Of a stretch of DNA of 22,573 bases, positions 17,963 to 22,573 are shown in pieces. The stretch covers positions 1 through 22,573 of the IMG/VR virus record IMGVR_UViG_3300024415_000052; one strand, 5' to 3'. The DNA is from a virus. Under the pieces are notes generated by a model. That model was given only the letters and a program-made list of their open reading frames with translations. It searched no databases and was not told where the DNA came from. The translations under genes and the position numbers were made by a program. Numbering within the stretch: position 1 is the stretch's first letter; every line of letters begins with the position of its first letter.

Positions 17963-18118
17963 TTAAAGAACTTTGAAAGTTTTATGTAAGATATATTCTT
18001 CTACTTGGTTTGTACTCATCCCATCCTGGATAAGTGTATGATATTTATGCACAGCAGCTCCTAGCTCCATATAATTAGGAAATGCCTTAATTAATTTTTT
18101 TAAAAATTCTTCTCTCAT
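17963..18118 (-). CDS. 51-aa helical protein coupled to the aminotransferase gene
   Basis: A short frame from an ATG at 18118 to a TAA at 17963, giving 51 residues beginning MREEFLKKLIKAFPNYM and ending ILHKTFKVL. It shares the sequence ATGA with the end of the preceding gene, a classic translational coupling. It fills most of an otherwise empty 183-nt gap and has no stop in frame, which supports a real gene. It looks like two or three amphipathic helices with mixed charge. No family is recognised. Confidence 0.6.
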   Translation of the reverse strand: MREEFLKKLIKAFPNYMELGAAVHKYHTLIQDGMSTNQVEEYILHKTFKVL

Positions 18119-18771
18119 TTTTCGTATATTTTAAATTTTGATAAATCAGGATAAGGTAACGACAAATCCTCTTGGTGCTTTTTAGTACCGTCCTGGTTAT
18201 AAAATTGGTTCATTAGCAATAATCCTCTTGCTGCTAATTCTGGCATCATATAAAAATTCCATCCAATCATATCAAAATTATCATCATGATAAGAACACTC
18301 TCTTCGGCCTGAATATCTTGCTCTCTTAAACCAATGGTATGCCGCTAAGCTATCAGTTAGTATAGCACCGCCTTTAGATAATTTAAAATGTTTATAAGGG
18401 CCAGTAAATGATATACACATATGTGTACCGGGTTTATACATATCAGCTGTAAATGTTAATGCTGAATCCCAAACATTGGATCCTTTTAATTGATATGCAC
18501 CAGTTAATTTACCTTTAAAAACTTGTGAGTGTTTTTTATCCCATCCTACCTTTAAACCTGCATGAATTATTTCACAAGGCACTGATGGGTAAGTTCTATT
18601 AGGTATCGTAATAGTATCAGTATCTATACTTTTATTAACATGCTTCTCATAATATAAAGCAAGGAATAAACCGTTACTCATATTATCTAATGTTACTGCA
18701 TATTTAGAACCAGTGTATTGTGCCAACTGCTCTTCAAATTCTTCTGTATTTTTGTATACTCCGTATGCCAT
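18115..18771 (-). CDS. Minimal DegT/DnrJ/EryC1-type PLP aminotransferase
   Basis: A 218-aa protein matching the large PLP-binding domain of the DegT family. It shows EEFEEQLAQYTGSKYAVTLDN, within which the family's tG-x-kyav segment falls at about 19-27, then SNGLFLALYY (phosphate loop region), ITIPNRTYPSVPCEIIHAGLKVGW (residues 55-78), D102 in WDSALTF at the place of the pyridine-binding aspartate, and the catalytic-lysine segment ISFTGPYKHFKLSKGGAI with K127. The end (YMMPELAARGLLLMNQF) matches the y-R-m-x-e-x-x-A-A motif. Family members are about 370-400 aa; the C-terminal domain is missing. They usually transfer an amino group to keto-sugar nucleotides. It starts within TAATG at the clamp-loader stop. 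The fold is clear; activity with half a protein and the substrate are unknown. Confidence 0.75.
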   Translation of the reverse strand: MAYGVYKNTEEFEEQLAQYTGSKYAVTLDNMSNGLFLALYYEKHVNKSIDTDTITIPNRTYPSVPCEIIHAGLKVGWDKKHSQVFKGKLTGAYQLKGSNVWDSALTFTADMYKPGTHMCISFTGPYKHFKLSKGGAILTDSLAAYHWFKRARYSGRRECSYHDDNFDMIGWNFYMMPELAARGLLLMNQFYNQDGTKKHQEDLSLPYPDLSKFKIYEK

Positions 18772-19805: not shown

Positions 19806-20600
19806 ATGAGGAGATCACGGAAATTAAGAAAGGTTGTTAAAGTTACTGTACCTAGAGAAGTGTCTAAAAATATAAAAAGTAACATAAATAGAGGTAATTC
19901 TAATCAATCAAAGATTTCTAAAGTAACAGTCCCTGTAAAGGTAAATAGTGAAAAAAGAAAATGGAATAATATTCCACTATCAAATGCTAAATACTCTAAT
20001 GTACCAAAGATATGGGCAAATGAAACTGTTTATTTAATTGGAGGTGGGCCTTCTCTTAAAAACTTCAATTGGAACTTGCTTAACGGTAAAAAAACCATAG
20101 CTATAAATAAATCAATAAAATTTTATCCTAATGCAGATGTTGTATATTGGACAGATGGAAGATTTCACGATTGGTTTAAAGATGAGATAAGTAAATTTAA
20201 AGGTTTAAAATATACCATAACACCGAGGAGGGATTTTAAGGATGATATTAATTTACTTAAGAGAGGGGTTAAGTTTGGTTTAGAAACAGCAACAAATGCT
20301 TTAGCTCATGGTAATAATAGTGGATATGCAGCAATAAACTTAGCTATACATCTAGGTGCCAAAAAGATTATTCTTTTAGGTTATGATATGTCAAATAATG
20401 GTAAAGAAAGCCATTTTCATGATGGCTATAAAGTTAATGCAACTAGCGAGAAAATTTACACCACTCATTTTTTACCAGGGTTTAGTGTACTAAAAGAATC
20501 TATTAAAGGAATGAACATTAAAATTTTTAATGCATCCCCAACATCAAGACTTAATACATTTCCTATAATAACAATAGAGGAAGCATTATCCCTTAGATGA
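19806..20600 (+). CDS. DUF115 / MptE-like Rossmann-fold protein
   Basis: A 264-aa protein and the only clear plus-strand gene. The first 52 residues are strongly basic and carry two copies of a KVTVP motif (VVKVTVPREV, ISKVTVPVKV). From residue 74 a Rossmann-like domain begins (VYLIGGGPSLKNF, TIAINKS), then ADVVYWTDGRFHDWF and the signature segment NSGYAAINLAIHLGAKKI followed by ILLGYDM at 189-195. This is the pattern of DUF115 proteins, which include Maf flagellin glycosyltransferases and archaeal 6-hydroxymethylpterin kinases; phage members have no settled role. No membrane segment is visible. It starts 72 nt from the divergent clamp loader gene and ends overlapping the zinc-ribbon gene by 15 nt, tail to tail. 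Its isolation on the opposite strand suggests a later acquisition with its own expression timing. Confidence 0.7.
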   Translation: MRRSRKLRKVVKVTVPREVSKNIKSNINRGNSNQSKISKVTVPVKVNSEKRKWNNIPLSNAKYSNVPKIWANETVYLIGGGPSLKNFNWNLLNGKKTIAINKSIKFYPNADVVYWTDGRFHDWFKDEISKFKGLKYTITPRRDFKDDINLLKRGVKFGLETATNALAHGNNSGYAAINLAIHLGAKKIILLGYDMSNNGKESHFHDGYKVNATSEKIYTTHFLPGFSVLKESIKGMNIKIFNASPTSRLNTFPIITIEEALSLR

Positions 20601-21077
20601 TCTACGAACATAAGTCATGAATTCCCTTTGTTCTCCTTTTAATAATGATTTACAGTGTTGAGTAAAGTTGATTGACGAATCTATTATTCTTTGATCAACT
20701 CTTTTATTTGATGAGTTATGAGACTCTGAGCACTTATTACATACAAAGTTTTCAACCTTTCTGGAATCCATCCTTGATTTAATCTCAGTTTTGCAAATAC
20801 CACAATTCCAATCTACTAAATCCGAGTCTTTTTCTAATTCTTTAATATTTGTAAAGGTTTCTCTAAAAGGATTCCAAAGTATACGGTTAGGATTTTTTTC
20901 ATGTTCATTCATATCCTCAACCTTAAATATAATCTCAAATGCATCTACATCAGAATCTAACCATTTCATATGATTATTTTCTAATAAAAGTTTTTGCTTC
21001 AAAGGAGGCAGATTCTCCAATAGAATTCCATGCCTCCTTTTATACCATCCAAAATTAATTTTTCTTACACGATACAT
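20586..21077 (-). CDS. Zinc-ribbon protein of unknown function
   Basis: A 163-aa basic protein with two CxxC pairs, C92/C95 (NCGICKTE) and C113/C116 (VCNKCSES), spaced like a small zinc ribbon. The N-terminal 90 residues contain several aromatic and basic segments (RKINFGWYKRRHGILLE, NRILWNPFRETF). The C-terminus is Arg/Ser/Lys-rich (YVRRSSKG). It could bind DNA, RNA or protein; phage transcription regulators and nucleases both use such ribbons. It lies 9 nt downstream of a tiny Cys-rich peptide gene and is probably on the same transcript. Its last 15 nt overlap the end of the convergent DUF115-type gene. I do not recognise a named family. Confidence 0.7.
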   Translation of the reverse strand: MYRVRKINFGWYKRRHGILLENLPPLKQKLLLENNHMKWLDSDVDAFEIIFKVEDMNEHEKNPNRILWNPFRETFTNIKELEKDSDLVDWNCGICKTEIKSRMDSRKVENFVCNKCSESHNSSNKRVDQRIIDSSINFTQHCKSLLKGEQREFMTYVRRSSKG

Positions 21078-21086
21078 AGTGTCTAT

Positions 21087-21152
21087 TTAACAGTTGCAAC
21101 ATTCACAGCTACATGATGTTCCACAGTTACATACTTTACAATCACATTTCAT
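21087..21152 (-). CDS. 21-residue metallothionein-like Cys-rich peptide
   Basis: ATG at 21152 to TAA at 21087. Nine of the 21 residues are cysteine, at positions 3, 5, 8, 10, 14, 16, 18, 19 and 21, giving a CxCxxCxC block and then CSCECCNC. The core NCGTSCSCECCN resembles the small fungal metallothioneins in its CxC and CxxC spacing. Such peptides hold Cu(I), Zn or Cd in thiolate clusters. The frame sits in the 83-nt gap between the coiled-coil head protein gene and the zinc-ribbon gene, 8 nt from one and 9 nt from the other, as expected for an operon member. There is no Shine-Dalgarno, like its neighbours. A chance frame with nine cysteines and exact operon spacing is unlikely. Translation and metal binding are inferred. 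It is far below the size cut-off of gene callers. Confidence 0.65.
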   Translation of the reverse strand: MKCDCKVCNCGTSCSCECCNC

Positions 21153-21160
21153 ATTAATAA

Positions 21161-22327
21161 TTATTTTTGCATATTTTGTGTTAACCTTCTAAACTTTTCA
21201 GAAATAGATTCTTCTAATGGATTAAAAGATTCTGGTACTAATGCAGCTAGTTTCTTTTTAGCATCAGCTTCCTTTTTCTTAAGTTCAGCAATATCTTCTT
21301 TACTATCTTCAATTGCCTTTTGTAGCTTTTGAACCTTTTCTTCAGAACCTCTACCAGTCTTTAAATCTCTTTTAGCCTGTTCTAAATCTTTGGTAGCTTT
21401 ATTCATTGTAGTTCTTTCAGCTTCTATGTTATCATTAAAGCTTTTAATATCAGCTTCTAATTTTGCACCTGGATCATTTTTACCAGTCTCAGTCTCTGTT
21501 TCAGTCTCAGTCTCTGTTTCAGTTTCAGCATTCGGATCAATAGCCTTTATCTTTTTCGTAATCTCCCCGATGTCATTTCCTAAACTTTTGAGCAATTCAT
21601 CGTTGCCATCTAGCTTAGCTTTTTTCTGTTGGGCTTGTTTAAATTTAATTTCTGCTTGTAGTTTGGCCTTTTCATCTTCGCCGTCTTTTACTTTATCATA
21701 CGCAGCTTTAGCTTTAGTAATCTCACCTTCAACAGCTTCTTTAGCCTTATCAGCTTTTTCTTTATCTAACTTTGCCTTTTCTGCAGCTGCAGCCTTTTCC
21801 TTTTCACCTGGCAATTCAACTTCTTTTTTATCACCAGTAGATTCATAATCTTTTAAAGCCTGTTGTGCATCAGCAGCTTTACCTGCTAATTCTTTAATTC
21901 TAATCTTAAGTTGTTTTGATTCTTCGCCATCTGCTGCCTTCAGCGCAGTTTCTGCTGCCGCTAGGTTTGATTTTGTAGTTGCAATAGTTACCACCTTTTT
22001 AAGAGCGTCAGATGTAGCCAAGTCTTTCATTCTTTGACTAACTGCAGATGCTTTATCTTTTAGTGCTTGATTCTTAGCTTTATTTGCAGCATCTAAAACC
22101 TCCTTTTGCTTAGGATCTATTTTACCTGCAGACTTTTCTTTCTTTTTAGCATGATCAACATTGTTTAAAGCTATTTGAACTTTAGTCTGTTGATACTTCT
22201 TGGCATTATTTTTAATCTTTGTATATTTAACAGGATTACTTGCAATACCTTTAATATCGGTAATACCTTCGTCTACACCTTTATTAGACTCTGTTATAAA
22301 TTGATTGTATGATTTTAATCTTTTCAT
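21161..22327 (-). CDS. Coiled-coil, Ala/Lys/Glu-rich probable prohead protein
   Basis: A 388-aa protein made almost wholly of charged helices with Ala, Lys, Glu, Asp and Gln, long coiled-coil stretches (for example AAEKAKLDKEKADKAKEAV), and a seven-unit Glu-Thr run near residue 270. The N-terminus MKRLKSYNQFITES contains ITE at 11-13, and the C-terminus contains LEE and ISE (371-377); these fit the (I/L)-x-E cleavage rule of the T4 gp21 prohead protease. It lies directly after the capsid gene. Composition and place suggest a prohead core (gp22-like) or internal head protein. A bacterial-type long-helix protein without such a role is possible. The gene has its own TATATAAA element and follows the capsid terminator. 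Confidence 0.55.
   Translation of the reverse strand: MKRLKSYNQFITESNKGVDEGITDIKGIASNPVKYTKIKNNAKKYQQTKVQIALNNVDHAKKKEKSAGKIDPKQKEVLDAANKAKNQALKDKASAVSQRMKDLATSDALKKVVTIATTKSNLAAAETALKAADGEESKQLKIRIKELAGKAADAQQALKDYESTGDKKEVELPGEKEKAAAAEKAKLDKEKADKAKEAVEGEITKAKAAYDKVKDGEDEKAKLQAEIKFKQAQQKKAKLDGNDELLKSLGNDIGEITKKIKAIDPNAETETETETETETETGKNDPGAKLEADIKSFNDNIEAERTTMNKATKDLEQAKRDLKTGRGSEEKVQKLQKAIEDSKEDIAELKKKEADAKKKLAALVPESFNPLEESISEKFRRLTQNMQK
21485..21526 (-). repeat. Glu-Thr dipeptide tandem repeat in the coiled-coil gene
   Basis: Seven ET dipeptides in a row. At the DNA level two exact 18-nt copies of GAAACAGAGACTGAGACT lie head to tail, which indicates slippage or unequal exchange. It separates two coiled-coil regions and probably acts as a flexible acidic linker whose length may vary between relatives. 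Confidence 0.85.
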
Positions 22328-22368: not shown

Positions 22369-22400
22369 AAAAAAAGGTCCGCCGTTAAGCGAACCTTTTT
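22369..22400 (-). terminator. Rho-independent terminator after the capsid gene
   Basis: On the minus strand AAAAAGGTTCGC pairs with GCGGACCTTTTT (one T-G wobble) around a short loop, and the stem runs into seven T residues. It begins about 24 nt past the stop of the partial capsid-like gene. Together with the downstream promoter-like element it isolates the capsid transcript. Confidence 0.87.
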
Positions 22401-22423: not shown

Positions 22424-22573
22424 TTAGATGATTGATACACCAGTACCAAAGTTGAATCCTAATGTGTAATACATTGTTTCTGGGTGGAATCCAGCGTCTA
22501 CTAAAGCGAATCTAGATTTAACCGCGATTTTAGGAGCCATAGTTCCTTCTGCGATTGTCTCAACAGATTCAGC
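22424..22573 (-). CDS. C-terminus of a probable major capsid protein (gp23-like)
   Basis: The last 49 residues of a protein that enters from the right edge. It includes AEGTMAPKIAVKSRFALVDA and ends YYTLGFNFGTGVSII. The pattern of a basic-aromatic segment (KSRFALV) close to a YY near the end recalls the C-terminal end of T4-type capsid proteins. The codon choice is richer in G and C than in neighbouring genes (GCG, GGT, ACT), which is common in highly expressed phage genes, and a strong terminator follows. All these fit the major capsid protein, but the fragment is short, and another abundant head protein cannot be excluded. Confidence 0.45.
   Translation of the reverse strand, partial: AESVETIAEGTMAPKIAVKSRFALVDAGFHPETMYYTLGFNFGTGVSII

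Follow-up and report, generated by a model that had tools for sequence, protein, structure and literature searches.

A 21-Residue Metallothionein-Like Peptide Gene in a T4-Like Phage Fragment, with Relatives in Marine Bacteroidota Genomes

We report a 21-codon gene from a T4-like phage fragment, encoding a peptide with nine cysteines, which variation among relatives indicates to be real, protein coding, and selected for those cysteines. As judged from scans of viral and bacterial genomes, the peptide family is common to many phages of marine Bacteroidota and to some marine Bacteroidota chromosomes. It is likely a cytosolic metallothionein-like metal chelator or buffer, encoded by a phage accessory gene that also resides on some host chromosomes. 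The family appears undescribed and widespread, and its members are about as small as functional genes get. An earlier note on this DNA had proposed a real, tiny metallothionein-like gene overlooked by gene callers; the retained cysteines and substitution constraint reported here strongly support that reading of the gene itself, which had missed how broad the family is and that some marine Bacteroidota carry it on their chromosomes.

Gene and genome context

The window (the whole stretch analyzed, 22,573 nucleotides of IMG/VR record IMGVR_UViG_3300024415_000052) is a T4-like phage fragment with genes for terminase, tail sheath, tail tube, clamp loader, 5'-3' exonuclease, and the end of a Gp23-type capsid protein (Table 1). 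The peptide gene lies just downstream of the capsid end and upstream of the T4-like replication genes (clamp loader and 5'-3' exonuclease). Its open reading frame (ORF) runs from an ATG through 21 codons to a TAA, with cysteines at positions 3, 5, 8, 10, 14, 16, 18, 19, and 21, and sits between two same-strand genes, 8 nt from the stop of the 388-aa gene (21161) and 9 nt from the start of the 163-aa gene (21077); all of these details, as first described, were reproduced exactly. It was the sole ORF in the window of at most 60 aa with at least six cysteines and at least 30% cysteine, and nothing comparable appeared in 300 first-order Markov simulations of the window (6.77 Mb).

Table 1. Features around the peptide gene (window coordinates)
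Feature	Position	Strand	Evidence
Cysteine-rich metallothionein-like peptide gene, 21 aa (MKCDCKVCNCGTSCSCECCNC)	21087..21152	-	ORF and family conservation
Major capsid protein C-terminal end, cut by window edge	22424..22573	-	phrog_28442 (PHROG 28442), E 4e-12; relatives match Gp23, PF07068
Upstream gene, 388 aa, coiled-coil-like; N-terminus MKRLKSYNQFITE^S like T4 capsid-targeting leader (L/I-x-E)	21161..22327	-	Motif rule, PMC9026906
Downstream gene, 163 aa, two CxxC pairs, zinc-ribbon/treble-clef-like (weak)	20586..21077	-	DUF4379 match; 80 related loci
Terminator-like hairpin after major capsid protein gene	22371..22400	-	Pattern match only

The hairpin suggests that the 388-aa gene, the peptide gene, and the 163-aa gene are transcribed apart from the capsid gene. 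For the 163-aa product, treble-clef/zinc-ribbon-like matches were weak at best (DUF4379, E 5e-4, not reaching the Pfam cutoff), and its gene is kept across the related loci with or without the peptide. Among named phages, the tail sheath of the window was nearest to that of the uncultured 462-kb phage LR756500, followed by other uncultured giant phages and by Flavobacterium, Tenacibaculum, and Prevotella (Lak) phages; these relatives among Bacteroidota phages point to a Bacteroidota host. The peptide pattern, within two mismatches, was absent from Tenacibaculum phages PTm1 and pT24, Flavobacterium phage MaF61, and metagenomic LR756500. Elsewhere in the window (18115-18771), a phage gene has a partial DegT/DnrJ/EryC1/StrS aminotransferase match (PF01041) and, at 218 aa, is a short version.

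Conservation upstream of the 163-aa gene

Eighty viral loci were gathered via the 163-aa protein alone, so that the sample was free of cysteine ascertainment, and the region upstream of that gene was scanned with any ORF of at least four cysteines allowed (the window is a 22.6-kb record, and the contigs of this set extend from short fragments up to 182 kb). The scan, which the earlier note had suggested for this slot, found the peptide family and no other such ORF. The peptide was present at 37 of the 80 loci (26 of 56 distinct loci), directly before the 163-aa gene at 32 and displaced upstream at 5, by an inserted gene in at least one case. At L144, the insert is a 335-aa gene with an O-fucosyltransferase-like match (PF10250).

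Loss of the frame or its cysteines among relatives, or substitutions lacking protein-level constraint, had been named beforehand as evidence against the gene; relatives that keep the frame retain every cysteine position, and constraint at the protein level was evident. Across 15 distinct slot cores, the sole exception to nine kept cysteines was C16H (L056). Pairwise differences at cysteine codons were 243 synonymous versus 14 nonsynonymous, all 14 from the C16H variant, and dN/dS (NG86) was 0.21 for the peptide core versus 0.70 for its noncysteine codons, which argues that selection acts on a peptide and, within it, on the cysteines in particular.

On the tree of the neighboring gene, presence and absence of the peptide need at least six changes, four of them forced by supported branches. 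Slot relatives without the peptide showed clean absence with no decaying copy, and those contigs with an empty slot that were checked, most of them fragments, lacked the peptide throughout. On this distribution, the peptide gene is an accessory gene, gained and lost by phages.

Breadth of the viral family

IMG/VR was scanned with the motif C.C..C.C...C.C.CC.C-stop, which matched at least 120 stretches; because the motif fixes cysteine spacing, other spacings escape, and the viral count is a lower bound. Seven matches were removed as poly-Cys repeat junk, leaving at least 113 viral ORFs of essentially one design, with a start zero to three codons before the first cysteine, a stop right after the last, and a length of 20 to 23 aa. 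Exceptions among the matches listed were a leader fusion (L181, described below) and a tandem double peptide (L099, reverse strand near 800-900; MRNRQNCNCENCKCQKACNCMKCNCSKSCDCACCDC), the latter resembling a two-domain metallothionein. The 118 distinct 19-residue cores (126 DNA variants, among the matches listed) contained no aromatic residue and zero to two hydrophobic residues, and two had a histidine. Neighboring gene families formed at least 74 different combinations, with 49 downstream gene clusters.

In a second sample without cysteine ascertainment, comprising loci upstream of a phage FAD-dependent dehydrogenase gene, the peptide was present at 12 of 48, each time with nine cysteines. 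Many related phages do without it (43/80 slot loci and 36/48 dehydrogenase loci).

Several other elements were observed along the way. At L245-L247, the slot upstream of the dehydrogenase gene holds a different small cysteine-rich ORF, MKRFICDLVYALSFRNICFGWCGSKIKCDCNCNC. A conserved RNA-like element lies ~100 nt upstream of the dehydrogenase ORF (L237-L295; e.g., L241:1744-1843), with or without the peptide; it has a riboswitch-like layout, in which a hairpin whose loop, AUUCAUA(G/A)C, is invariant and whose stem shows compensatory changes in three of five pairs (16 sequences) precedes a terminator-like hairpin, and it has no Rfam match. Longer phage proteins of cluster c3 (L096, L100, L104, L161, L166, L180, and L210) start with a four-cysteine block, MC[NDSK]CGCNTC; in several of them an LNE cleavage-like site comes next, and their relatives in other phages are without the block.

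A blastn search with two peptide genes brought up short matches to Acinetobacter phages BS46/Phab24, AR9, Citrobacter phages, and a crAss-like phage, which were rejected: the BS46 and cr131_1 records have longer annotated genes at the match (that of BS46 on the opposite strand, with no cysteine-rich peptide), and the matches in AR9 and Citrobacter phages were weak (E 0.1-0.5). Using the 21-mer, tblastn against phages found nothing, as expected for a short cysteine-rich query.

Copies in bacterial genomes

A GTDB-based scan of 84,980 species with the same motif gave 24 stretches, of which 22 were in Bacteroidota genomes, one was repeat junk (Idiomarina), and one was on a phage contig in a Flavobacteriaceae bin (L210). 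The 22 genomes, mostly marine metagenome-assembled or single-cell genomes, belong to Flavobacteriales, other Bacteroidetes, Cytophagales, and Rhodothermaeota. Ten copies share one syntenic chromosomal site (L201-L206, L209, L217, L219, and L222), between what we take, from the sequences, to be Na/Ca-exchanger-like and pirin-like genes near glnA, and five more (L207, L211, L213, L214, and L221) lie among other ordinary chromosomal genes. The nine Bacteroidota genomes checked had one copy each, and a survey of genomes of the order, with 1 of 398, was uninformative. This occurrence on marine Bacteroidota chromosomes, with patchy presence in phages, is that of an accessory gene shared with the host. 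Glycine at position 11 occurred in 82 of 103 phage cores but, among 23 host cores, in L210 alone, a contrast which argues that the phage copies are not recent host captures; as the sequences compared share ancestry, its p-value is indicative only.

Proposed function and alternatives

In the function we propose, nine thiolates would enclose either roughly three divalent ions (M3Cys9) or several Cu(I) ions. Made by the phage during infection, the peptide would buffer or sequester a thiophilic metal of the infected cell (Zn, Cu, or Cd) and would probably shield or supply metal- and thiol-sensitive proteins of the phage itself; both the identity of the metal and the benefit (protection, supply, or sequestration) we infer. 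Nine cysteines form Zn3Cys9 in the mammalian metallothionein beta-domain (PMC10243857). The family has the composition of metallothioneins (small and cysteine rich, nine in 20 to 23 aa, in CxC, CxxC, and CC motifs, with few aromatic or histidine residues), and its cysteine ligands are conserved in both samples gathered without cysteine ascertainment, apart from one Cys-to-His change. With no aromatic and so few hydrophobic residues, the cores could form no hydrophobic core, and a metal cluster would be their natural fold. No signal peptide or hydrophobic segment was found in the peptide, so a cytosolic location is expected.

Cysteine conservation alone would fit metal binding, redox, or Fe-S roles alike. 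A thiol redox buffer, whose cysteines would scavenge oxidants or exchange disulfides in the infected cell with metal binding incidental, nevertheless appears unlikely. Thiol density is very high, and the dehydrogenase gene repeatedly adjoins the peptide in one phage lineage, but that adjacency is limited to one group of contexts, most dehydrogenase relatives are without the peptide, and scavenging needs neither an odd number of cysteines nor strictly fixed spacing. The only tolerated change, C16H, preserves metal ligation, not redox chemistry, since histidine is also a metal ligand.

A bolder extension of metal chelation, which we consider decidedly unlikely, has the peptide soak up metal in the service of host takeover or counterdefense; in at least some lineages, it would be loaded into the capsid by means of a T4-type leader, delivered along with the DNA, and would strip or clamp host metal early in infection. 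L/I-x-E is the T4 gp21 cleavage motif of capsid-targeting leaders (PMC9026906). Homologues of the 388-aa upstream protein keep such a leader (e.g., MAKLKTYNEFVNE^A), and we infer its cleavage in the 388-aa protein. Leaders with L/I-x-E start 24 of 35 upstream gene families versus 7 of 35 at a single control position (slightly looser motif; Fisher 9e-5), an enrichment that may reflect only the gene's place in the head module. An S77 prohead protease is encoded at L144. At L181 (reverse strand, about 1051-1150), the leader is fused to the peptide itself, MKNLKTQLNE^SCDCTLCECKSSCNCSCCSC, with neighbors carrying the same leader type; this single-case lead suggests packaging and injection in some phages, and another search of viral sequences for copies fused to a leader yielded L181 alone.

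Instead of a general buffer, the peptide might be a dedicated metal donor or stripper for a specific partner, such as a zinc-ribbon protein of the phage, a primase, or the RNA polymerase of the host. The CxxC-containing 163-aa gene follows it in the window, the neighbor to which the earlier note had tied metal handling, and a DnaG-like primase gene lies within a few genes downstream in another context (c10). That tie did not hold up: the 163-aa gene is one of the 49 downstream clusters, roughly half of its relatives occur without the peptide, and the contigs checked with a peptide-free slot (mostly fragments) do not carry the peptide elsewhere either. Given also the variety of neighbor combinations, a dedicated partner is highly improbable.

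That the ORF acts as an RNA or as a Cys-codon attenuator is barely credible: it is very short and intergenic, but its cysteine codons vary silently while the amino acids stay fixed, which largely refutes this reading; flanks and contexts are unrelated, chromosomal copies lie at unrelated sites, and an attenuator does not need nine codons at fixed spacing. The probability of a functionless chance ORF, despite a length of only 66 nt, is negligible, as none arose in the simulated 6.8 Mb and the peptide is conserved in >110 viral loci and across hosts.

If the peptide is a metallothionein-like chelator or buffer, metal (or thiol) handling would be a target of selection while abundant marine bacteria are being infected, with phage and host sharing a 21-residue tool, and metal handling in infection may rely on a metal-binding gene product that is among the smallest seen. 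The cysteine motif also offers a search pattern for similar microproteins dropped by annotation pipelines.

Comparison with known systems

The peptide family had no significant match in Pfam, PHROGs, NCBIfam, or the PDB. Pfam metallothionein models did not match the window peptide, and among 36 members PF01439 matched 3 (best E 0.54); phmmer and profile searches of the PDB returned no fungal metallothionein and only wheat Ec (E 7). These weak, subthreshold matches are all to metallothioneins.

The tiny fungal metallothioneins (Neurospora and Agaricus Cu-metallothioneins and Heliscus Cd-metallothionein) have seven or eight cysteines. The phage peptide is like them in its length of about 20 to 25 residues, its exclusive use of CxC/CxxC-type motifs, its lack of aromatics, and its predicted single small cluster, and unlike them in its nine cysteines, different cysteine order, and fixed CxCC.C end. 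The resemblance drawn at the outset thus stands for composition and fails for sequence, with no match in Pfam or the PDB; it is likely convergent. Bacterial metallothioneins (SmtA/PmtA, PF02069, and MymT) are about 50 to 80 aa long, the SmtA type having a zinc-finger fold and histidines. They share with the peptide the character of bacterial cytosolic cysteine-rich metal binders (binding being predicted for the peptide), whereas the peptide is far shorter and has no HMM match to them.

With the mammalian metallothionein beta-domain (Zn3Cys9; PMC10243857), the peptide shares nine cysteines in one short domain, mostly in CxC/CxxC spacing, but it is a stand-alone 21-residue phage and bacterial gene with other spacing and no detectable homology. 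A literature search found no report of a phage-encoded metallothionein, which does not prove that none exists. As for T4 internal (IP) proteins (PMC9026906), upstream neighbors of the peptide, including the 388-aa gene, start with L/I-x-E leaders; unlike those proteins, the peptide is without a leader in the window and in every copy seen except L181. The peptide falls outside every known metallothionein family and represents a new metallothionein-like family, expected to work as metallothioneins do.
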